From Bacteriovoracaceae bacterium (lineage in GTDB: Bacteria > Bdellovibrionota > Bacteriovoracia > Bacteriovoracales > Bacteriovoracaceae): a stretch of 64,000 bases of DNA. Positions 2 to 51,276 of the stretch are shown in pieces. The stretch covers positions 1 to 64,000 of the forward strand of contig JAIEMA010000017.1 of assembly GCA_019752535.1 (NCBI GenBank), in the 5' to 3' direction. Position numbers and translations under genes: made by a program. Position 1 is the stretch's first letter. Every line of letters begins with the position of its first letter. The notes under the pieces were generated by a model. It ran no database searches. It was not told where the DNA came from and saw only the letters and a list, made by a program, of their open reading frames with translations.

Positions 2-193
2 ATGGCCAAGAGTCGCGCTTTTGTAGAATGCATGGTTGATCGCTCTTTTGAACTTCTTTGTATGAGAAAAATTAAATCGACAGAGAAAGATATCAAAACA
101 GAACTCACAGATAATTTCATAGGCACTCAAAACTACAATATGAAAAGTTTATTTGCCTCTACTCTTAGCAAGTGTGTGACTGATGAAAACTAA
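2..193 (+). CDS. C-terminal part of an unidentified protein, cut by the left edge
   Basis: An open frame runs from the left edge to a stop at 191-193. Its first ATG, at position 2, is probably internal to a longer gene, because no ribosome binding site can be seen. The 63 visible residues hold cysteines at 10, 20 and 58 and match no family I can name. It overlaps the next lipoprotein gene by 11 bp, which suggests translational coupling with the export cluster that follows. Given those neighbours it may be the tail of a large exported cytochrome-like protein, but that is a guess. Confidence 0.5.
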   Translation: MAKSRAFVECMVDRSFELLCMRKIKSTEKDIKTELTDNFIGTQNYNMKSLFASTLSKCVTDEN

Positions 194-857
194 CATAAAA
201 AAAGAATTTGCCCGCTGGGGCGTGATTGTGGCGATGGTGGGTATTCTCATCGGCTTTACTCAATGTATTGGGACTCAATCAACCAGCGATGATTACAGCT
301 CTACTCATAGTGAAATTTTACTCCCCGAAGAGCCCGTGGATGAAGAAGCTCCGGAAATTGGAGTCAAAGATGCGGATCGTTTATTTGAAACGATGAGTGT
401 CCTGACTGGTGTTCCTTCCAACAATGGAACGATCAGAGGCATCTTCAACAGTGACTATAAAGCGCAACTTCCGGTTGGAAGTCGTGTCGAAGCAATGCTT
501 GAAACGCATATGCTTGGAGCGACTAAACTGGCGACTGAATTCTGCAACGTGCTTATCAATGATGGCACTCTTCGAGCAGCGATTTGGCCAGCTAATATTT
601 TTAATTTCGGTGCCAACAGTAATACTGTTTTTGCTCCAGGTTCAGCATCAAGAGATCAATTCATCGTTCTTATGCTCGAAAGATTTTGGGGCAAGAATGT
701 CCTAGAAATCTCAGAGTATGAGAAGGGCTATGATGCTATCGATAAACTTATAACTGATGTTCTAAATGGACAGACAGGAAGCGCAGCTATGACGGTTAAC
801 ACCGCCAAGTCCGCTTGCACTGCTGCTCTCTCTAGTTCTCAAGTCATTTTTCAGTGA
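183..857 (+). CDS. Predicted lipoprotein, unknown function
   Basis: The 224-residue product starts with a basic segment and a hydrophobic stretch ending in GFTQC, a plausible lipobox with the lipidated cysteine at 28, so it should be anchored in the envelope. An acidic, proline-containing linker follows (about 45-65), then a globular part with two cysteines. No catalytic motif is recognisable. It overlaps the preceding gene by 11 bp and lies 6 bp before the Tat-exported DUF1501-like gene. The N-terminus resembles that of the haem lipoprotein two genes downstream (RWG, then a hydrophobic stretch ending in FTQC), so the two may be targeted alike. Confidence 0.7.
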   Translation: MKTNIKKEFARWGVIVAMVGILIGFTQCIGTQSTSDDYSSTHSEILLPEEPVDEEAPEIGVKDADRLFETMSVLTGVPSNNGTIRGIFNSDYKAQLPVGSRVEAMLETHMLGATKLATEFCNVLINDGTLRAAIWPANIFNFGANSNTVFAPGSASRDQFIVLMLERFWGKNVLEISEYEKGYDAIDKLITDVLNGQTGSAAMTVNTAKSACTAALSSSQVIFQ

Positions 858-863
858 GGCATT

Positions 864-2321
864 ATGGAAGATAATAAAAAAGATAAAAAACCACTGAACA
901 TCGATAAAGACCATCCCCTTAAAACGCGTCGAGATTTCCTCGCTCAAGGTTTACTGGCTTCCGCAGCGACGATGGTTCTTCCCTTTGATGCCATGGCACA
1001 AGACGGATGCGATCTTGCCTCAATTACGGCCGTAGACAATCCCATGATCCCAGTCATCATTCTCGATCTTGCCGGCGGAAGTAATATCGCAGGCTCCAAT
1101 GTGATAGTGGGCGGAGCAAATGGACAGATGGATTATCTTCCAGATTATAAGACCGTTGGTCTTCTTTCAAATGAACATCCATCCATCGCCGGAAAAGTTT
1201 CTGATCTTACAGGAAACACGACATCCCCTTCAGGCTTATTATTTCATTCGCAATCTCAAATGCTCGCTGGAATTATGTCTCAGGCCCCCCTCGCCGTTCG
1301 TCAAAGAACGGATGGAATTCTTCTTTGCTGCTCATCCGATGATGACACTGGCAACAATCCACACAATCCGATGTACTGGTTTTATAAGGCCGGAGCTCGT
1401 GGAAAACTCACTCAATTGATCGGGTCTCAAGGTGGGCAATCTGGTGGTAACTCTCAAGCTCCCTCCACTTCTGTCGATCTCTCAGTAGCTCCTCTCACAA
1501 TTAATGAGCCTAAAGATGTAACCAACCTCGTGGGTCTTGGCAGACAAGGATTCACGACCGGTCGTGAATCATTCATCTTGCGCGCTCTTGACTCACTCTC
1601 AAACGCACGAGTCAGTGCTCTCTCGCGTCGCCAGATGCCAGATGCAGTGAAAGACCTAGTGCTTTGTAATGTTAAAAAGACTGAAGTGCTACTGCAAAAC
1701 TTCAACCCAACGTTACTAGATCCTGTCAATGATGCGAACGTCACGGCCGTGTTTACTAACATTGCTGGTGATGGCAACCAAAGAAAAGCTGCATCCGTTT
1801 GTAAAATGGTTCTTGATGGATTAGCTGCAACTGGAACAATTACTCTTGGTGGATTTGATTATCACACAGGTGACCGAGTCACCGGAGATCAAAGGGACAG
1901 AGAAGCTGGAGAGATGATTGGAAAGATTCTAGCTGTTGCCGCAAGAAAAAATACACCTGTAGTCGTTTATGTCTTCACCGATGGCGGTGTCAGTGCGGGA
2001 ACATCAGTTGATGGGGCCAATGGACGCCTCGTTTGGGGTGGTGACAATGGACAGCGCTCTGGTTCAGTCATGTTGGCCTACAATCCAACTGGTAAACCTC
2101 AAATGCGTTCTAACTCAAGACAGATGGGTCGCTATAAAGTTGGTGCCAGCGTCGATAACTCGGCCACTCCAATGAGTAACTCGGTGACGAATCTGGCAAA
2201 GTCAGTCGTACTGAATTATCTCGCCCTTCATGGGATGGAGAATGATTTAGATAAAGTCGTTGGCGACAATCCATTTGCCGCTAATATTAATCAACACCTC
2301 TTCTTTCGGAAAATAGCATGA
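864..2321 (+). CDS. Tat-exported DUF1501-like protein
   Basis: A 485-residue product. After a charged N-terminus it has a twin-arginine signal, TRRDFLAQG (arginines 22-23), a hydrophobic stretch and an AMA cleavage site near 45, so it should be exported folded through Tat. The body has the layout of DUF1501 proteins (sulfatase/alkaline-phosphatase-like fold): an early LDLAGGSN segment, a central GGFDYHTGDR segment and a late VVYVFTDGG segment. The substrate is unknown. DUF1501 genes usually sit beside genes for exported haem proteins, as here. The stop overlaps the next start by 4 bp (ATGA). Confidence 0.7.
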   Translation: MEDNKKDKKPLNIDKDHPLKTRRDFLAQGLLASAATMVLPFDAMAQDGCDLASITAVDNPMIPVIILDLAGGSNIAGSNVIVGGANGQMDYLPDYKTVGLLSNEHPSIAGKVSDLTGNTTSPSGLLFHSQSQMLAGIMSQAPLAVRQRTDGILLCCSSDDDTGNNPHNPMYWFYKAGARGKLTQLIGSQGGQSGGNSQAPSTSVDLSVAPLTINEPKDVTNLVGLGRQGFTTGRESFILRALDSLSNARVSALSRRQMPDAVKDLVLCNVKKTEVLLQNFNPTLLDPVNDANVTAVFTNIAGDGNQRKAASVCKMVLDGLAATGTITLGGFDYHTGDRVTGDQRDREAGEMIGKILAVAARKNTPVVVYVFTDGGVSAGTSVDGANGRLVWGGDNGQRSGSVMLAYNPTGKPQMRSNSRQMGRYKVGASVDNSATPMSNSVTNLAKSVVLNYLALHGMENDLDKVVGDNPFAANINQHLFFRKIA

Positions 2322-3619
2322 CACCAGGATTTATTCGTTGGGGGCTAGTTGGTTTTTTACTTGGACTAGCGTTCATGTTCACTCAGTGCGGGAAACCCTT
2401 TGCCACAAAAGGTGATCTCATCTATTCAGTTGATGGCGTAGGTGTTGTCTCTCCGATCGCTGGAGGAACGGCAGAAAGTTCACTGTCTGCCTTCCAGCAA
2501 ACTGTTTATCCGCTGACACGCTCTCACTGTGTTTCTTGCCATGGAGGAAGTCAAACTCCCCTGCATGCATCATCTGACCCGGCCGTGGCCCATAATGCCG
2601 TTTTACAGAAAGTAAATTTCACAGATCCTTCAAACTCACGAATGGTGAGAAAACTTCGTGACGAATCCCATCACTGTTGGACGTCTTGCAGTCAAAGTGC
2701 ACAAATCATGCAAGACGCGATTGCTGAGTGGACCTCTCGTATGACAACAGTCAACACAGATCCTCCAGGTGGAACAAACGATTATAACTTAGTGACAGGC
2801 CAATCACAGACAGTGGCGCAAGAGAGACAACTTGTCACGGCCGGGGCGTTTTTAATGACATCATCTGCAGGAACAGCGATGTATTCCACTCCGTTTGTTT
2901 ATAATTCAACGATCTCTCCGGGTTTTATTGAAGCGCCAAATGATGGAAGCAACCAAACATTCTCGAGCACTGATCCAGCGGCAGGCCAAGCCACATTTGC
3001 GATGAGTTCAATGGCCAATAGAACTGGCGGAGCGCTTTGGGGTCTTGTTCAAGCTGCGGCCAATAATGATGATTCATTCTTTATTAAAATGAATAATGGC
3101 AATCTCATTCAATGGAATATTCCTGATACAAATGGAAAGTTTCAATGGGTGCGTGTTCCAAACAACTATAACGTCAATGCTGGCAATAACGTTGTGACGG
3201 TTAGAGAGAGAGAAGATGGCACGAAAATCGCCATGCTGCTTTGGACTCAAGACCAAAACTTTGTGCCAACAGGGGCCGGTACGGCCGGCGAGATCAAACT
3301 GACTTTCCCGCTCTCAACTCTTCTTGGCGGAGTCAGTGGTGTGAGTTTAGAAGTGAAGCTTAACGACTATGACAGCTATAGCTACAAGCTCACGTCATTA
3401 CGTTTAAACAATACTTCTGGCCGCATGATTTATGTAAAAAATATTCGTCTCATGCTTAATGGCCACTACAGCCCGCAAAATGCGAACTATACGTACGTTG
3501 ATCAAACGGTGCCTAATGGCGGGGCCAACCTCAATCCAGGAAGTATGATTGTGCTGAAAGAAAAAGGCGAAGCAGTAGATAAGCTCAGCTTCGCCTTTGA
3601 GATCTTAGAAGTTAGATAA
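2318..3619 (+). CDS. Haem c-binding lipoprotein with a large C-terminal domain
   Basis: A 433-residue product. A hydrophobic segment ends in MFTQCG (lipobox cysteine 24), and one c-type haem motif, CVSCH, lies at 71-75. An HHCWTSC segment follows near 125. The remaining 270 or so residues are rich in G, N, S and T and look like a beta-sandwich, possibly a ligand-binding module. It is probably an envelope-anchored monohaem cytochrome working with the Tat-exported protein encoded upstream (4-bp overlap). The redox partner is unknown. The 3' end overlaps the convergent antiporter-like gene by 8 bp. Confidence 0.7.
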   Translation: MTPGFIRWGLVGFLLGLAFMFTQCGKPFATKGDLIYSVDGVGVVSPIAGGTAESSLSAFQQTVYPLTRSHCVSCHGGSQTPLHASSDPAVAHNAVLQKVNFTDPSNSRMVRKLRDESHHCWTSCSQSAQIMQDAIAEWTSRMTTVNTDPPGGTNDYNLVTGQSQTVAQERQLVTAGAFLMTSSAGTAMYSTPFVYNSTISPGFIEAPNDGSNQTFSSTDPAAGQATFAMSSMANRTGGALWGLVQAAANNDDSFFIKMNNGNLIQWNIPDTNGKFQWVRVPNNYNVNAGNNVVTVREREDGTKIAMLLWTQDQNFVPTGAGTAGEIKLTFPLSTLLGGVSGVSLEVKLNDYDSYSYKLTSLRLNNTSGRMIYVKNIRLMLNGHYSPQNANYTYVDQTVPNGGANLNPGSMIVLKEKGEAVDKLSFAFEILEVR

Positions 3620-41193: not shown

Positions 41194-42399
41194 ATGAAAA
41201 AAATTGTCACCCTCACACTCATCACTCTACTTTCAAGCTGTGCTTCAAATAAAGAGACTGACAGAGGCCCCGGTTCTGTTTCTATGCAAACTCTTAATGA
41301 GCCCACCATTGATGTCGCTCTCAATGAAGAGTATGAACCCAATGAAGACCAAGCGATCCAAAACGTTATTCATGAAGCGATGGTCGCTCTCAAGAGAGAT
41401 TACCATCCTCCTCATGTGCCTAGAGATGCTCATGCCAAATCCCATGGCTGCCTTCAGGCCTCATTCACTGTCAAAAATCAAAATCTGCCCGCAGACTTAC
41501 GAGTCGGTGTTTTTAAAGAGAACAAATCTTATCCGACGTGGGTAAGGTTCTCGAACAACACCAGCGATCCGATGTCTCATGATAAAGATCTCGATCTTCG
41601 TGGGATTGCGATTAAGGTCATGTATGTGAATGGAAAAAAACTCATGACTCGCGAAGAGGATGAGCTCACACAAGATTTTTTAATGTTCGCAAGTCCCATC
41701 TTTTTTGTAAAAGACATCAAAGACTACTCTGAGTTTATTAAGGCCTTAGGAGATGGTCGCGCCTTTCAAGATCTTCTCACTCGTCCGCGCTCACTTGTAC
41801 AATTAGCGACGGCGCAGCTTAAGGCGAAGAGTAAAAAGAATCCTTTAAAGCTCACTTATTTTAGTGCCACACCCTATTGCTTAGGTCTTAAGAATAATCC
41901 GGCGAAACGTCCGGTTAAATATTCAGTTACGGCCTGTGATGCTGAAGCCACAAGACTTGCGCCTAATGGAGATTCAAGCCGTCCGAACTTTATGCGCGAG
42001 GCTTTAGTTCAAAGTTTAAATCAAAAAGATGCCTGCTTTAATTTTCAAGTTCAGCTTGGGGATGCTAAAGAGCCTGCTGTTTATCCGGTGGAAGACCCAA
42101 GTGTTTTATGGCCTGAGAAAGGAAGTCTTCTTCACCCCAATCGCTTTAGCCCCTACGTGACTGTAGCGACTCTTCGTATACCGAAACAAATTTTTGATAA
42201 TCCTGAGCGCGATCAATTCTGTGAGCACTTAAGCTTCACGCCTTGGCATGCCCTTCCTGAACACCGCCCTCTTGGAAGAACCAATCGCATGCGCTTGAAG
42301 CTCTATGAAGCCATTTCAAGCTACCGTCATAAATCCAATGGTGTAGAGAGGAGAGAGCCCAAAACGCTTGATCCAAAAACAGCTTATCCGAATCAATAG
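41194..42399 (+). CDS. Catalase-fold lipoprotein (y4iL-like)
   Basis: A 401-residue protein with a lipobox (LLSSC) and the heme-dependent catalase core. SHGCLQASFTV holds a possible distal histidine, YPTWVRFSNNTSDP is conserved in the family, and FTPWHALPEHRPLG with RMRLKLYEAIS gives the RxxxY proximal tyrosine. Members of this subgroup are often not true catalases but other peroxide or lipid oxidases. An envelope anchor is unusual and suggests work outside the cytoplasm. Confidence 0.85.
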   Translation: MKKIVTLTLITLLSSCASNKETDRGPGSVSMQTLNEPTIDVALNEEYEPNEDQAIQNVIHEAMVALKRDYHPPHVPRDAHAKSHGCLQASFTVKNQNLPADLRVGVFKENKSYPTWVRFSNNTSDPMSHDKDLDLRGIAIKVMYVNGKKLMTREEDELTQDFLMFASPIFFVKDIKDYSEFIKALGDGRAFQDLLTRPRSLVQLATAQLKAKSKKNPLKLTYFSATPYCLGLKNNPAKRPVKYSVTACDAEATRLAPNGDSSRPNFMREALVQSLNQKDACFNFQVQLGDAKEPAVYPVEDPSVLWPEKGSLLHPNRFSPYVTVATLRIPKQIFDNPERDQFCEHLSFTPWHALPEHRPLGRTNRMRLKLYEAISSYRHKSNGVERREPKTLDPKTAYPNQ

Positions 42400-44486: not shown

Positions 44487-45023
44487 ATGAAAATTTCACT
44501 CATACTCAGCTTATTTATTTTCTCATTCGTGGCTTGCGCAAGCAATGCCGGAACACCAGTTCAAACTGTCTCTTCAGTTGATCTTTCTCGTTATGTGGGT
44601 AAATGGTACGAGATTACTCGCTTCCCTAACAGCTTCCAAAAGAAATGCTTAGCCACAACTGCTCAGTACTCTCAGCGCAACGATGGAAAAATCAACGTTC
44701 TTAATACTTGTAAGACTGCTAAGGGCGTAAAAGTTGCTAAGGCGATCGCTTCAATTGCAGACAAAGTCACAAATTCAAAACTCAAAGTAAGCTTTGTTCC
44801 TTTCTTTAACCGCTTTGGCTGGTTCGCAGGAGATTACTGGATCCTTGATCTTGCTGATGACTACTCTTACGTGCTCGTAGGCTCTCCAGACCGTAAGTTC
44901 CTCTGGGTTCTCTCACGCAAACCGACTCTTGATGCCAACATCATTGAGGCACTCAAGACTGTAGCGCAGAGAGAAGGCTTTGATGTTTCAAAGCTTCGCG
45001 ATACTCCGACTTGGACTGAATAG
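44487..45023 (+). CDS. blc: Outer-membrane lipocalin (Blc)
   Basis: A 178-residue lipoprotein (lipobox FVAC). The lipocalin signature YVGKWYEITRFPNSFQKKC opens the barrel, GWFAGDYWILDLADDYSYVLVGSPDRKFLWVLSR is the second conserved block. Blc proteins bind lysophospholipids or fatty acids at the outer membrane, often under envelope stress. A strong terminator follows. Confidence 0.93.
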   Translation: MKISLILSLFIFSFVACASNAGTPVQTVSSVDLSRYVGKWYEITRFPNSFQKKCLATTAQYSQRNDGKINVLNTCKTAKGVKVAKAIASIADKVTNSKLKVSFVPFFNRFGWFAGDYWILDLADDYSYVLVGSPDRKFLWVLSRKPTLDANIIEALKTVAQREGFDVSKLRDTPTWTE

Positions 45024-46383: not shown

Positions 46384-46989
46384 TTAATTCTCCGGCATCC
46401 CAATCACAATCCATTCTTTGAAAGCGGCTAACACTTCTTCACTTGGTACGGGTGCTTTCGGATTGCCTTCAGCATCAAGCGGCGGCATCTCGTAATTCTC
46501 GATTGCAGAGAGTATATCACTACTTTCTTCTACCACTGTTTCATAGTGAGCAAATGAATCGAGTCTTGTGGAATTATCGTTGTGGCACATCGTGCAGCTT
46601 TTATCAAAAAGATGAACCTTCAAGGATTTAAAAGTTGGCTTTAAGGGAATCGGTGGTGGAACGTTCGTCCCGGCTCCCATGATATAGCCTTCCACTAATT
46701 TTAATTGTTGTTGAGAAAGTGCGCCTGCCCCTTTAGGCATTTTGCCAGAAGCTAGCTGCACATAGAGAGTAGAAGCATTCAAATTTCCTTGAACAACTCT
46801 CATTCGCACCTGTGACTCATCAGCAACCCAACCATGACAACTAATACATTGAGGTTTGAGAATAAATTCTTGAAGCGTTTGAAAACTCACCCCATCTTTT
46901 ATCGAAGGTACGGAGCGATAAATTTGACTCTCATTTGTTCCGCTTTTCTCGCAACCAATAAGGCATAACAGTAAAATTAAAAATTTCAT
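46384..46989 (-). CDS. Di-haem c-type cytochrome lipoprotein
   Basis: About 201 residues from the ATG of 46989. The lipobox is LIGC. Two c-type haem motifs, CISCHGW (near 50) and CTMCHND (near 135), with methionines after each (MPKGAGALS, MPPLDAEG) as possible sixth ligands. It is the last gene of a four-gene periplasmic electron-transfer operon and overlaps the end of the porin-like cytochrome gene. Confidence 0.8.
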   Translation of the reverse strand: MKFLILLLCLIGCEKSGTNESQIYRSVPSIKDGVSFQTLQEFILKPQCISCHGWVADESQVRMRVVQGNLNASTLYVQLASGKMPKGAGALSQQQLKLVEGYIMGAGTNVPPPIPLKPTFKSLKVHLFDKSCTMCHNDNSTRLDSFAHYETVVEESSDILSAIENYEMPPLDAEGNPKAPVPSEEVLAAFKEWIVIGMPEN

Positions 46990-46991
46990 CA

Positions 46992-48059
46992 CTACCACCA
47001 ATTTAAATAAAGTTGGAACAGTTTAATCTCATCGTTTATGCTTCCCGTTTTCCTTACTCGATCTTCAAATGAAAATGTTAAGTTTTTAGTGAGACGTATC
47101 TCAGCTCCAAGAGCAATGCGAGACTCTCTTGAAAGAAACGCCCTATCCTTCTCTAGCCCCTGCCAAGAAGTGAAGAGATGTAAAAATTCGGCTGGATAAA
47201 AAGACAGTTGTTGATACCAAGTCCACTGCCTAAACTCTGTTTTATCTTCTTTGATTTCTCTCCAGGTGCGATCGACTTCCGCTAGGTAGGAAAATTTCCC
47301 ATAACCAGCCTTCAGTAAAAAGCCAACGAGATCTCTTTTAATACTAGGACTATTTCCACTTAATCCTTGGAATCCTAAAGCGATATGCCGGATGGGCTTA
47401 AACCAGATCTGTGATCCTACACCATTTTCTTGATTGCCCTTCTCTTCGTTGGGATTAGCCGCGTACAGAAATGTGTGTGATTGAAATTTTAAAGACTCAA
47501 AGTAATGTTTGATTAACAGAGGCAAGTCCGTCACTTGATTGCGATTATTGGCCCTCACATAAGAGGTATGATCGATGAGACCAAGACCTATGGGTAAACT
47601 TGAGATCCCTAAACTCATTCTTTGTTGCTTATTCACCCAACTGAGGAGCAGGGATCTTGCATACAATCTTTTATGAGCTGGTTTTGCGTCTTCAGGTGCC
47701 ACATCTTTGGGCTTTGGAGCGACGGCTAGAATTCCCTCTACTCTTAAATTTTCACTTATTTTATATTGAGCAAGATAATCCATCTGCATGGGAAAAGTTC
47801 GCGTCTCTTCCACTTCCTGAAGACGCAACACTCTTCCCTGAAAGGCTTGTATATACTTTTTTTCACCTTCATCTTCGGAGGGCTCAGAAGAGATAAGGGA
47901 TTGTGTCGTAGCAATCCCTTGACCATAAGGAGTGAGAAGTCCGCCACCTTGGGAAGACATATGGCATCCCGTGCAGCTGGCATAGCCAAGGCGAATGTAG
48001 GTGGGATGGGCCTCAGTTCTTTCTATCATCAATATTAAAAATAAAAGCCCAACCCACAT
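46992..48059 (-). CDS. Outer-membrane barrel-like protein with one haem motif
   Basis: A 355-residue protein with a Sec signal (cleavage near TEA-HP) and an immediate haem motif, YASCTGCHMSSQGGG. The rest alternates in barrel-like strands and ends in YLNWW, a typical outer-membrane terminal aromatic. A haem plug on a barrel suggests electron passage across the outer membrane. It is third in the operon, 2 nt after the YceI gene. Confidence 0.75.
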   Translation of the reverse strand: MWVGLLFLILMIERTEAHPTYIRLGYASCTGCHMSSQGGGLLTPYGQGIATTQSLISSEPSEDEGEKKYIQAFQGRVLRLQEVEETRTFPMQMDYLAQYKISENLRVEGILAVAPKPKDVAPEDAKPAHKRLYARSLLLSWVNKQQRMSLGISSLPIGLGLIDHTSYVRANNRNQVTDLPLLIKHYFESLKFQSHTFLYAANPNEEKGNQENGVGSQIWFKPIRHIALGFQGLSGNSPSIKRDLVGFLLKAGYGKFSYLAEVDRTWREIKEDKTEFRQWTWYQQLSFYPAEFLHLFTSWQGLEKDRAFLSRESRIALGAEIRLTKNLTFSFEDRVRKTGSINDEIKLFQLYLNWW

Positions 48060-48061
48060 AA

Positions 48062-48550
48062 CTACTCCATTGTCTTAAATGTCACTTCAACATTATCTTC
48101 AACTTGAACTCCCATAAAACTGGGCCTTGGAAGATCATATTGAGAGAGAGCAATGGTGGCTTTTCCAGCTAAACTCTTTTTATTAGAACTCATCTCGACT
48201 GGAAGTTTTATTTCACGAGCTTTATCTTTTATGGTCAGAACTCCCATAAGCTCACATTTATTTGAAGCGCAGACTAAATCTTTTGCCTCAAAAGAAATAA
48301 AGGCATCGCCCTTGTTTTTCGCTTTAAAAACTTTTTCGCGTAAATGTTTATCGCGGGCCTCCATTCCTGTTTCTAATTCAAAAACATCAAACTTCAGTGT
48401 CGCTCCCTTTACATTTTCCAAACTTCCAGCGAAGACCATCTTCTGGCTCTTTCCCTCCACAGAAACACCTGGCATATTTGTATTAGCGACAAATGAAACT
48501 TCTGAAAAACCTGCAAAGACACTCGATATAAAAAATAACAAAAACATCAC
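48062..48550 (-). CDS. YceI-family periplasmic protein
   Basis: A 162-residue YceI protein: Sec signal, then FVANTNMPGVSVEG, DVFELETGMEARDKHLREKVF and PRPSFMGVQVEDNVEVTF. YceI forms a lipocalin-like barrel that binds polyisoprenoids or quinone-like tails. An AGGAGGAAG site precedes the start. Its position between haem protein genes suggests quinone handling. Confidence 0.88.
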   Translation of the reverse strand: MMFLLFFISSVFAGFSEVSFVANTNMPGVSVEGKSQKMVFAGSLENVKGATLKFDVFELETGMEARDKHLREKVFKAKNKGDAFISFEAKDLVCASNKCELMGVLTIKDKAREIKLPVEMSSNKKSLAGKATIALSQYDLPRPSFMGVQVEDNVEVTFKTME

Positions 48551-48556
48551 TTCCTC

Positions 48557-48991
48557 CTAAAGTTTAAATTCATCATGGCCGACTGTTTTAAGAGCACCCA
48601 TTTTCTTAAATGCGATTTGAGACTTTGAGACATCACTTCCAGCAATAGCACTCTCAAGCTCTTCAGTGGCCACATGAAGTTGGTTCATAAGTTCTTGGTA
48701 GCGAGTGATCTTAGCTTCGCGCTCTACGACGGGAAGAGTCAGAATAAAGTCAGGCAAAAGGAGAGCCGCTTCATCCACAAGCTGTAAAATCTCATGAGCA
48801 ATCACTGCTTCTCTGCTGCCAGCAGTCCCACTCATCACTGGACGGGCCACTGATCCAAGCTTAGTCCCCATCAATTTCATCACAGCCGCTAAACTTCTTG
48901 CTTCTGCGTAAGCTGAAGCAGTTAAGCCAATGTGAGTAAGAAGAGCCGTAGCTGACAAAAGACATCCGAAAACAAATTTATTTAAGTTCAT
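48557..48991 (-). CDS. Cytochrome b562-like periplasmic protein
   Basis: About 144 residues from the ATG of 48991, preceded by AGGAGGTAACT; a frame reaching 49054 lacks a site. A Sec signal ends near AYA-EA. The mature part is an acidic four-helix bundle with MKLMG near its start and GHDEF at the end, positions that match the Met and His haem ligands of cytochrome b562. No CxxCH is present, so haem would be non-covalent. First gene of the operon. Confidence 0.65.
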   Translation of the reverse strand: MNLNKFVFGCLLSATALLTHIGLTASAYAEARSLAAVMKLMGTKLGSVARPVMSGTAGSREAVIAHEILQLVDEAALLLPDFILTLPVVEREAKITRYQELMNQLHVATEELESAIAGSDVSKSQIAFKKMGALKTVGHDEFKL

Positions 48992-49062
48992 AGTTACCTC
49001 CTGGAATAGTTTTAAAGGCAAACCCTCTAACTTGACACAAAGAGCAACTAACAAAAAATGAT

Positions 49063-49082
49063 GGGATTTGACGGGATTTAAT
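49063..49082. promoter_or_regulatory. Tandem 10-bp repeat in the divergent haem-operon/regulator region
   Basis: GGGATTTGAC and GGGATTTAAT follow each other at 10-bp spacing, in the 105-bp gap between the cytochrome b562-like gene and the TPR regulator. Direct repeats on one helical face suit an OmpR-like winged-helix protein such as the adjacent regulator. Confidence 0.45.
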
Positions 49083-49096
49083 GCTAAGTTTTAACT

Positions 49097-50824
49097 ATGA
49101 AAGAGCAACTTTATAAGGGTCAGTACAAAAAGATCCTTGAGAAGAATCAATCCATTCAAAACACTGAATCGCTCATAGCGCAAATAGGTGCCCTGTGTTT
49201 TATGGGAAGAGTCGAAGAAGCAGAATCACTTTATCTGACACAAAAAATATCACACATGAGCGATAGGATTGAGGCGAGATTTTTTTTGGCTTTAGGCCTT
49301 ATCAGAACCTCCGAGTACCCAAGAGCAAGAAAATATTTAGGTGAGAATCTCAGGTCGATAAGAAATGTTAAGAAGAATCACACGGCGCTTTTTTACATTT
49401 ATCAAGGTTTAGCCTTCTACCGCTATTTTTGCGGTAAATGGGATCTAGCCCTCCTAACTGTTCAAAAGGCCTACAGAGAGTCACTGCTAGCAGACTTTTC
49501 TTACGGCAAAATTTTATCCAGTGACTTAAGAGGACATCTTCTCGTTCAAGTCACCAATGTTGATGAAGGTATTAAAGAGCTCTTTATTACATCACAACTT
49601 TCTAGAGATTTTGGGAACACTTCAATAGCAGAAGCTTGTGATATTTCAATTTTATCTTATGAAGCCCAATATGGACTTAAGCCAGAAAAGATCATTCATG
49701 AGATTAAACTAAAGCTCAAGGGGCTTAAATCAAATGACACCTATTCGAAATCCTCACTCCTTTTGGAGCTTACAAGGCAATTAATCATCAGAGGACAAAT
49801 CTTAGAAGTTGAGCCTTTGCTAGATGAAGCGAGTCGACTCATATATATGTTCAGAAATAGAAGGCAGGAGGCCGTTCTCAATCTACGTTGGGCTTATCTC
49901 AGTCTACTCTCTAATGACCTTTACCGGGCCTTAAGTTTTACTCAATCCTCTTTGCGATCTCTTGATCTAGCCGTCGATCGTGTGATTGAATTATCTGCTT
50001 TGGGTCTTCAGTTAAAAATTATCGAGCGATTACCCCTGCAGAAAGAAAAAGCCGCTCTCATTAAAGAACTTAAAGTTAAATCCATTGCATATGGTGGAAG
50101 TGTTCATAAGCAAATTCTTAATCGCTATAGTAAAAAACATTTTCCCTATACTTCAAATTATACAGGGGATCGGATCAATCAAATTATCAATGAAAATGAG
50201 CCGACCAAGATCATTTCGTCTGGCTATAATTTATTTTTATACCAAGCGCTTAATCTTCCCTTCGGTGAAAAGATCATTCATTTTAATATCGCTTCATCCG
50301 AGATTATTTTTCTCTCTTCAGGTCAAATCCACCTACTCAGTGATCTCACCTCAACATTAAAAAAATTCCTTGAGAATGTTGTCAATGGTGTGACTACAAA
50401 AGAGGAAATCATCAAAAATGTTTGGGGCTATCAGTATCATCCCCTTCGTCATGATCCCTTGATATACAATACTGTTTTAAATCTTAGAAAAAGACTTGGC
50501 TCATTTTCGGAATGGCTCGAAACGACTGAGAAAGGCTATCGTTTGCATCCTGGGATTCAGGTCAAAGTGCTAAATACAATCGATAAGCCAGCGAATATTC
50601 ATTCGGTGAATCTTTCATCTCACCTTAATCATAGACAGTTGAATTTCCTAAAAAAACTCAAAGCGGATGTATTTATTCATGTCAAAAAATATCAGGAGCA
50701 ATTTGGCGTCTCGGAAATTACGGCATGCAGGGATCTGGCCATGTTGCAAAGAGAAGGATATGTCTTAAGAGTAGGCCGAGCTCGTGCGACTCGTTATGTT
50801 TTGAATAATGGAGTTATATTATGA
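49097..50824 (+). CDS. TPR regulator with OmpR-type winged helix and extra C-terminal HTH
   Basis: A 575-residue protein without membrane segments. Residues 1-350 are helical repeats (TPR-like). About 415-490 form an OmpR/PhoB-like winged helix: TTKEEIIKNVWGYQYHP, VLNLRKRLG and TEKGYRLHP. The last 70 residues form another HTH: FLKKLKADVFIHVKKYQEQFGVSEITACRDLAMLQREGYVLR, DeoR-like. It is divergent from the haem operon. No Shine-Dalgarno precedes the ATG. It probably senses a ligand or protein through the TPR part. Confidence 0.75.
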   Translation: MKEQLYKGQYKKILEKNQSIQNTESLIAQIGALCFMGRVEEAESLYLTQKISHMSDRIEARFFLALGLIRTSEYPRARKYLGENLRSIRNVKKNHTALFYIYQGLAFYRYFCGKWDLALLTVQKAYRESLLADFSYGKILSSDLRGHLLVQVTNVDEGIKELFITSQLSRDFGNTSIAEACDISILSYEAQYGLKPEKIIHEIKLKLKGLKSNDTYSKSSLLLELTRQLIIRGQILEVEPLLDEASRLIYMFRNRRQEAVLNLRWAYLSLLSNDLYRALSFTQSSLRSLDLAVDRVIELSALGLQLKIIERLPLQKEKAALIKELKVKSIAYGGSVHKQILNRYSKKHFPYTSNYTGDRINQIINENEPTKIISSGYNLFLYQALNLPFGEKIIHFNIASSEIIFLSSGQIHLLSDLTSTLKKFLENVVNGVTTKEEIIKNVWGYQYHPLRHDPLIYNTVLNLRKRLGSFSEWLETTEKGYRLHPGIQVKVLNTIDKPANIHSVNLSSHLNHRQLNFLKKLKADVFIHVKKYQEQFGVSEITACRDLAMLQREGYVLRVGRARATRYVLNNGVIL

Positions 50825-51276
50825 AATTTCTTATTCTCACTCTTTTTTTAAGCTGTTCAGCCTTTGCTCAATCGTATGGAACTTACCACGTCCCAGTTCC
50901 TGCTGAATTAAATCAGTTTGCAAGCTTCGAAGTGATTGATGCAAACATTCAAATTGTAAATGACAAAATTAATGTGAGCTACCGTCTGCCAACTGAACTT
51001 GTGGGTCCAATAGAAAACACTGTTACTCTGAGTGGCACAATCAAACAGAGAAAAATTTTAAAGCTTAGAGGTCCAAATTCTAGGGCCACATGTGTAAACA
51101 CTGAAACTCAACTGGAATGCAAAGTAACCTACCCAGACTTAATTATTGATAACGCATCCGTTGAAGAATATCTTAAGCAAACCATTCAAGACCCAGCAGA
51201 ACTTAAAGCCAGACTTGAGGTCGCTACAACATTTTCCACTGAGCCAGTTGGAATTGTGACATTAAATAAGTTCTAG
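50821..51276 (+). CDS. Secreted protein, unknown
   Basis: A 151-residue protein whose ATG overlaps the regulator stop by 4 bp. A Sec signal (cleavage near AFA-QS) precedes a beta-rich mature part with two cysteines (RATCVN, LECKV). No domain is recognised. Co-translation with the regulator suggests a shared role. Confidence 0.65.
   Translation: MKFLILTLFLSCSAFAQSYGTYHVPVPAELNQFASFEVIDANIQIVNDKINVSYRLPTELVGPIENTVTLSGTIKQRKILKLRGPNSRATCVNTETQLECKVTYPDLIIDNASVEEYLKQTIQDPAELKARLEVATTFSTEPVGIVTLNKF

Follow-up and report, generated by a model that had tools for sequence, protein, structure and literature searches.

A predicted haem-plugged outer-membrane barrel operon with a divergent TPR-containing regulator in a Bacteriovoracaceae bacterium: a candidate Cyc2-related electron conduit

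Does a compact group of haem-protein genes in a Bacteriovoracaceae bacterium (phylum Bdellovibrionota) encode a route for electrons across the outer membrane, and is it switched by the regulator gene that diverges from it? The question is raised by the first 64,000 nucleotides of contig JAIEMA010000017.1 (assembly GCA_019752535.1; the whole stretch is called the window here), in which an earlier note had described a periplasmic haem operon and suggested that its products could carry electrons from the periplasm across the outer membrane. Upon computing the gene content, its conserved linkage, the porin fold of the barrel protein, the relation of its haem plug to that of Cyc2 and a direct-repeat DNA site, we judge it fairly probable that this operon encodes a path for electrons across the outer membrane and that it answers to a local regulator of its own.

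The operon and its predicted haem-barrel protein

The five genes named in the earlier note (four haem-operon genes and the regulator) were all present where it had placed them, and all were confirmed. On the minus strand, the operon reads b562-like, YceI, CxxCH-barrel and di-CxxCH lipoprotein, with gaps of 2–6 bp that bear out the tight order described; the regulator gene diverges on the plus strand, its start lying 105 bp from the b562-like gene. The operon features are as follows.

48557–48991, minus strand: cytochrome b562-like periplasmic protein with a signal peptide, 144 amino acids from an ATG at 48991, the probable real start (PF07361, E 7.5e-4)
48062–48550, minus strand: YceI-family lipocalin-like protein, of an isoprenoid/quinone-binding family (PF04264, E 4.8e-15)
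46992–48059, minus strand: predicted fused monohaem cytochrome-porin, comprising a signal peptide, a CTGCH haem plug and a 16-stranded outer-membrane barrel (AlphaFold2, Foldseek, plug profile)
47961–47975, minus strand: CTGCH haem-binding motif, residues 29–33 of the cytochrome-porin (Cys/Cys/His invariant in 68 relatives)
46384–46989, minus strand: di-CxxCH c-type cytochrome lipoprotein, 201 amino acids from an ATG at 46989, the probable real start (Cytochrome_CBB3, E 5.6e-6; PSCyt1, E 1.7e-4)

Because this complete gene order recurs in locus L043 (another species of the same genus) and in L184 (another genus), the operon is more than a chance arrangement.

The barrel protein of the window (355 amino acids, against about 357–398 in relatives) returned no Pfam or NCBIfam match, and a PDB sequence search with it was uninformative. 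An AlphaFold2 model based on 68 aligned sequences nevertheless predicts a barrel of 16 beta strands (mean predicted local distance difference test score (pLDDT) 80.8, predicted template modelling score 0.80), and its Foldseek matches are 16-stranded general porins, with OprP (2o4v) at rank 4 and OprO (4rjw) at rank 29, so that structure prediction and fold comparison both return the barrel that the earlier note had proposed. Among the 68 relatives, seven carry a Pfam Porin_O_P match, and eight residues are invariant in all of them (C29, C32, H33, G38, Y45, M91, G151 and H164). The loop that carries H164 joins strands 5 and 6 and corresponds in position to the pore-folding loop (L3 constriction loop) of general porins. 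M91, considered as a distal haem ligand, was ranked behind H164: strand parity groups it with the hydrophobic residues of strand 2 and so speaks against a ligand role.

The b562-like protein of the window scores 20.5 bits, below the curated PF07361 cut-off of 30; its same-genus orthologue (L043:5341-5763) matches over the whole profile (E 2.4e-5, 25.3 bits against the same cut-off), and relatives in L115 (5e-9) and L136 (2e-8) exceed the cut-off. A putative axial-ligand pattern of b562 can be read from the sequence, as a Met near the mature N-terminus (MKLMG) and a GHDEF near the C-terminus, with MGLMG and GHEEF at the corresponding places of the L043 orthologue. In L142 and L200, the position of this soluble carrier is occupied instead by a cupredoxin-like protein, so called from Copper-bind matches below the Pfam cut-off together with copper-ligand-like residues. 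The YceI protein scores 56.7 bits (PF04264 cut-off 23.7), and the lipoprotein has two CxxCH motifs and a lipobox-like LIGC. The window genome also encodes a cytochrome c assembly protein and two haem-copper oxidases, so that it has the means for covalent haem attachment and a sink for electrons. YceI proteins are known to bind isoprenoids including ubiquinone-8, with ubiquinone present in several structures (PMC9113575), and Cellvibrio Cbp2D, which combines a YceI-like domain with c-haem domains, one of them redox active and able to reduce lytic polysaccharide monooxygenases (LPMOs; PMC8981238), provides a precedent for the pairing of YceI with c-haem in the operon.

Relation to Cyc2 and conserved linkage across the phylum

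Cyc2 is a fused cytochrome-porin that imports electrons as an iron oxidase; according to Keffer et al. 2021 (PMC8406198), OprP and OprO are its structural homologues. To compare it with the window family, plasmid records were searched with a 37-residue peptide composed around the published Cyc2 motif (AxPxFAR[Q/K][T/Y] before CxxCH, PxL after; PMC8406198), which retrieved Cyc2-like proteins on plasmids of Methylocystis, Caballeronia, Paraburkholderia, Ideonella, Polymorphobacter, Acidiphilium and Acidithiobacillus; six of these plasmid proteins were aligned as the comparison profile. When the full profiles were compared with hhalign, the plug alone matched (E 1.9e-7), and the plugs by themselves aligned with E 5.6e-11 over 42 columns, compared to E 2.6e-6 over 14 columns for a control of generic CxxCH haem domains from neighbouring lipoproteins. 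Judged from these alignments, the plug of the window family is related to that of Cyc2 by homology.

The likeness extends to overall architecture, as in both cases a signal peptide and a single N-terminal CxxCH plug are fused to a 16-stranded OprP/OprO-like barrel (for Cyc2, in Acidithiobacillus, Mariprofundus and Gallionellaceae), with A-x-P-x-[F/Y]-x-R before the CxxCH and L-T-x-[Y/F]-G after it; a c-type cytochrome gene adjoins most Cyc2-like plasmid loci as well. The window plug reads AHPTYIRLG before and GGGLLTPYG after its CxxCH, thereby retaining the A, the P, the aromatic residue and the R of the Cyc2 motif but lacking [Q/K], [T/Y] and PxL, and it is because these elements are missing that the window family has not been filed as Cyc2. 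The two differ further in length (355 amino acids against the 365-amino-acid minimum of the FeGenie cut-off), in the invariant M91 and H164 of the window family (no Met and no barrel His is invariant among the six Cyc2-like proteins) and in partners, which for the window barrel are YceI, b562 or cupredoxin-like proteins and the TPR regulator described below.

Within the phylum, a 17-sequence profile detected the barrel family in 176 of 291 genomes (~60%). Neighbours were surveyed in 60 loci chosen by the barrel alone, in which barrels were split into window-type and GNG/GGGAL-type by a simple text pattern, gene calling was mechanical, several loci run to contig ends, and the label haem lipoprotein covers any related small CxxCH protein. 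YceI lay within 2.5 kb of 32 of the 36 window-type barrels, on the same strand within 60 bp in 29 of them, and a CxxCH gene was nearby in 28; for the 23 GNG/GGGAL-type barrels the corresponding counts were 17 (YceI) and 21 (CxxCH gene). Relatives thus carry the operon genes together and not in unrelated places. Plasmid searches beyond the phylum with the barrel and the plug gave no match, and a single scan of genome contigs returned the same-genus relative only.

Paralogous cassettes occur in varied surroundings. In the window genome itself, di-haem lipoprotein/YceI/haem barrel cassettes lie amid copper/metal-handling-like genes at L049 (contig C24) and L050 (C30), where pairs of extracytoplasmic-function (ECF)-sigma-like and membrane-protein genes are also found. 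Elsewhere, CsoR/RcnR-like metal-sensitive repressors lie near haem-barrel cassettes in L055, L094, L101, L116, L121 and L122 (PF02583 being confirmed for L116 only), together with a multicopper oxidase in L055; a cassette version in L134, L118, L141 and L052 has a YHS-domain-like protein upstream, with a nitroreductase directly after the barrel in L134; and an open reading frame of 560 amino acids with 21 CxxCH motifs adjoins the cassette of L128. At the left end of the window (183-3619), genes for a lipoprotein-like protein, a protein with a twin-arginine translocation (Tat) signal (RRDFL) and a CxxCH protein resemble, by eye, the neighbours of GNG-type barrels in L057, L062, L099 and L104; the window itself showed no barrel of that type. 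Closer to the operon are a lipoprotein-like protein with a catalase-domain match (41194-42399; PF00199, E 4.6e-7) and a protein that by eye is Blc-type lipocalin-like (44487-45023), ~3 kb from the YceI gene.

The divergent regulator and its predicted operator

The regulatory side of the locus comprises the following features.

49032–49059, plus strand: promoter-like TTGACA-16-AAAAAT for the regulator gene (consensus scan only)
49060–49079, plus strand: predicted operator of two head-to-tail 10-bp units, TGATGGGATT TGACGGGATT (direct-repeat survey)
49097–50824, plus strand: regulator of 575 amino acids with tetratricopeptide repeats (TPR), an OmpR-like winged helix and a DeoR-like helix-turn-helix (HTH) (Pfam; AlphaFold2 pLDDT 86.7)
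50821–51276, plus strand: small protein of 151 amino acids with a signal peptide (no Pfam match; 4-bp overlap with the regulator gene)

The three-part regulator described in the earlier note is borne out by structure prediction and by Pfam matches across its family. In the window protein, HTH_DeoR matches above its cut-off (E 2e-5, 24.6 bits, cut-off 21), Trans_reg_C below it (E 8.6e-4, 19.8 bits against 26.2), and the TPRs have weak Pfam support; across nine family members, the DeoR match is found in seven and the Trans_reg_C match (E at most 0.01, best 5e-6) in six. The AlphaFold2 model places TPR helices at residues 2–384, a winged helix with N-terminal strands at 392–491 and a second winged helix at 512–569. 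The TPR part resembles LGN, and Rap was returned at lower rank but with a higher TM-score. The architecture that the earlier note called unusual therefore stands as described, but it is not a one-off: it defines a conserved and apparently undescribed family present in 50 of the 291 genomes.

In 20 loci picked by the regulator alone (mostly the best-scoring, not a random sample), the secreted-protein gene accompanied the regulator in all 20 and haem-cassette genes in 13. In a tree of 80 barrels, a supported clade unites 12 regulator-linked barrels of several families, the window barrel falling in a second group, and the regulator label changes four times on the tree compared to 15.5 times in shuffles. 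Separately, small secreted proteins with motifs around GF.SES.E.S and GGTVLKKEV.C are encoded divergently from the same regulator family in L198:4555-4881, L201:900-1226, L047:9619-10005 and L048:5392-5727, and this type occurs in loci with or without a haem cassette.

Upstream of the regulator gene, a direct repeat with a 10-bp period (at least 9 of 11 positions matching) was found in 24 of 28 loci, other periods averaging 0.7, and the mean repeat score of 9.39 out of 11 compares with 6.79 (standard deviation 0.17) in 200 dinucleotide shuffles. The repeat unit varies by locus (TGATGGGATT, TGGTGCAATT, TGTTGTGATT) while both copies within a locus stay alike. L046 differs in that its regulator gene follows the haem genes and has lost the divergent arrangement; here the haem operon itself is preceded by a repeat-like site, which keeps the same orientation relative to that operon. 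This repeat, a new finding of the present analysis, is probably the operator of the regulator, and its position directly after the promoter-like sequence suggests self-repression. A scan of the window genome revealed no second convincing copy; the sole other site, with two mismatches, is weak and was estimated at chance level, and a genome-wide regulon was accordingly set aside.

Two known regulator groups offer partial parallels. The DNA sites of OmpR/PhoB regulators are direct repeats with 10–11 bp spacing, and the present family shares with them a predicted winged helix and a predicted tandem direct-repeat site. It has no receiver domain, however: TPR helices occupy the N-terminal place where OmpR/PhoB response regulators carry one, and the winged helix follows the TPR domain and is itself followed by the DeoR-like HTH. 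To RRNPP proteins (Rap, NprR) it is likened by the fold similarity of its TPR domain to Rap and NprR, whereas the adjoining gene encodes a secreted protein of 151 amino acids rather than a short peptide.

Proposed mechanism, alternatives and significance

From the features computed above we infer the placement of haem in the pore, its ligands, the flow and direction of electrons, the substrate, the role of YceI and the repressor or activator action of the regulator. The operon would build a single-haem conduit across the outer membrane, in which, following the proposal made for Cyc2, the N-terminal c-haem plug would be located at the periplasmic entrance of the pore or within it. Haem would be attached via Cys29 and Cys32, with His33 as the proximal ligand and the invariant His164 as the best distal candidate. 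The di-haem lipoprotein would exchange electrons with a small redox partner outside the cell, and from the lipoprotein they would pass through a soluble shuttle (b562 here, cupredoxin-like in some loci) to the respiratory chain, while YceI would supply or carry an isoprenoid quinone. The regulator would bind the tandem 10-bp repeat lying between the divergent transcription units, repress itself and switch the haem operon upon a signal read by its TPR domain. The conduit suggested in the earlier note gains weight from the Cyc2-related plug and the exchangeable soluble redox proteins.

Several points weigh against this picture. The barrel sequences of the window family and of Cyc2 are not alignable, and the shared plug could therefore sit on independently recruited porins; the plug (residues 28–64) is the low-confidence part of the AlphaFold2 model, which contains no haem, and H164 is a candidate distal ligand only. 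Furthermore, paralogous cassettes have very different neighbours, with metal repressors and a multicopper oxidase beside some, a nitroreductase and YHS proteins beside others, and Tat-exported proteins beside others again, which makes one substrate for all of them unlikely.

The main rival is an oxidative-stress module of the envelope, in which YceI acts as an isoprenoid antioxidant, as proposed for BcnA, quenching peroxyl radicals of outer-membrane lipids while the haem proteins feed or drain electrons and the barrel provides no conduit to the outside. It draws on the protection of membrane lipids from peroxyl radicals by BcnA together with the cytochrome b561 LcoA (PMC9113575), and YceI is indeed the most constant neighbour of window-type barrels. 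The window operon resembles LcoA–BcnA in encoding a YceI protein together with a haem protein, but it shows no cytochrome b561 gene (other loci were not searched for b561) and has instead c-haem and b562-like proteins and a haem porin; as a haem-plugged porin is unneeded for lipid repair and the plug relates to Cyc2, we regard this rival as unlikely. A porin in which the haem plug acts as a gate, admitting or blocking a substrate (for instance a metal ion) depending on a redox state set by the cytochromes, would suit the diffusion-porin fold and the metal-sensitive repressors or multicopper oxidase beside some paralogous cassettes (L055, L116). The conserved separate c-haem protein and the b562 or cupredoxin-like partners suit electron traffic better, however, and gating appears distinctly improbable.

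Even if the operon encodes a conduit, its direction may be debated. An export arm, through which electrons from quinol would reach oxidants or enzymes outside the cell instead of entering from a donor such as Fe2+ or Cu+, is a possibility we hold as doubtful: ubiquinone binding by YceI in several structures (PMC9113575) and the candidacy of Cbp2D-type YceI and cytochrome proteins for feeding extracellular LPMOs (PMC8981238) speak for it, whereas Cyc2, the nearest characterised relative, takes electrons inward as an iron oxidase (PMC8406198). A chance neighbourhood around a barrel whose CxxCH binds no haem could appeal to the missing Pfam and NCBIfam matches of the window barrel, but with the CxxCH retained in 68 of 68 aligned relatives and the linkage retained across several families, it is very improbable indeed.

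Among systems described elsewhere, MtrCAB, PioAB and MtoAB, in which a separate multihaem cytochrome lies within a 26-stranded barrel (PMC10654088), would share with the window operon a haem electron path through an outer-membrane barrel, but differ in that the window protein fuses one haem to a 16-stranded barrel and the operon has genes with one and two CxxCH only; MtrAB has been reported in Bdellovibrionota and is a different system from that of the window (PMC13200544). Cellvibrio Cbp2D and Cbp2E likewise combine a YceI-like domain with c-type haem domains and have a proposed role in extracellular electron transfer, yet they are multidomain secreted proteins with a carbohydrate-binding module and no porin. 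Our literature search found no paper on the operon system of the window.

We rate the operon as a variant of the Cyc2-like cytochrome-porin with other partners, and, with regulator, operator site and target operon all located, the system is directly testable. More tentatively, we propose a phylum-wide class of single-haem outer-membrane conduits, related to Cyc2 via the plug only, with interchangeable parts (a c-haem lipoprotein, YceI and a b562 or cupredoxin-like protein). The haem would be held by a histidine of the L3 loop, and some of the loci would be controlled by TPR regulators of a new family, whose two DNA-binding domains would act on a tandem 10-bp repeat. Members of the phylum may thus carry electrons across the outer membrane by a route not previously described. 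Cyc2-type cytochrome-porins are known markers of iron oxidation. Should the conduit function as proposed, members of the phylum would trade electrons with their surroundings, and marker-gene surveys built on the Cyc2 motif would overlook these porins.

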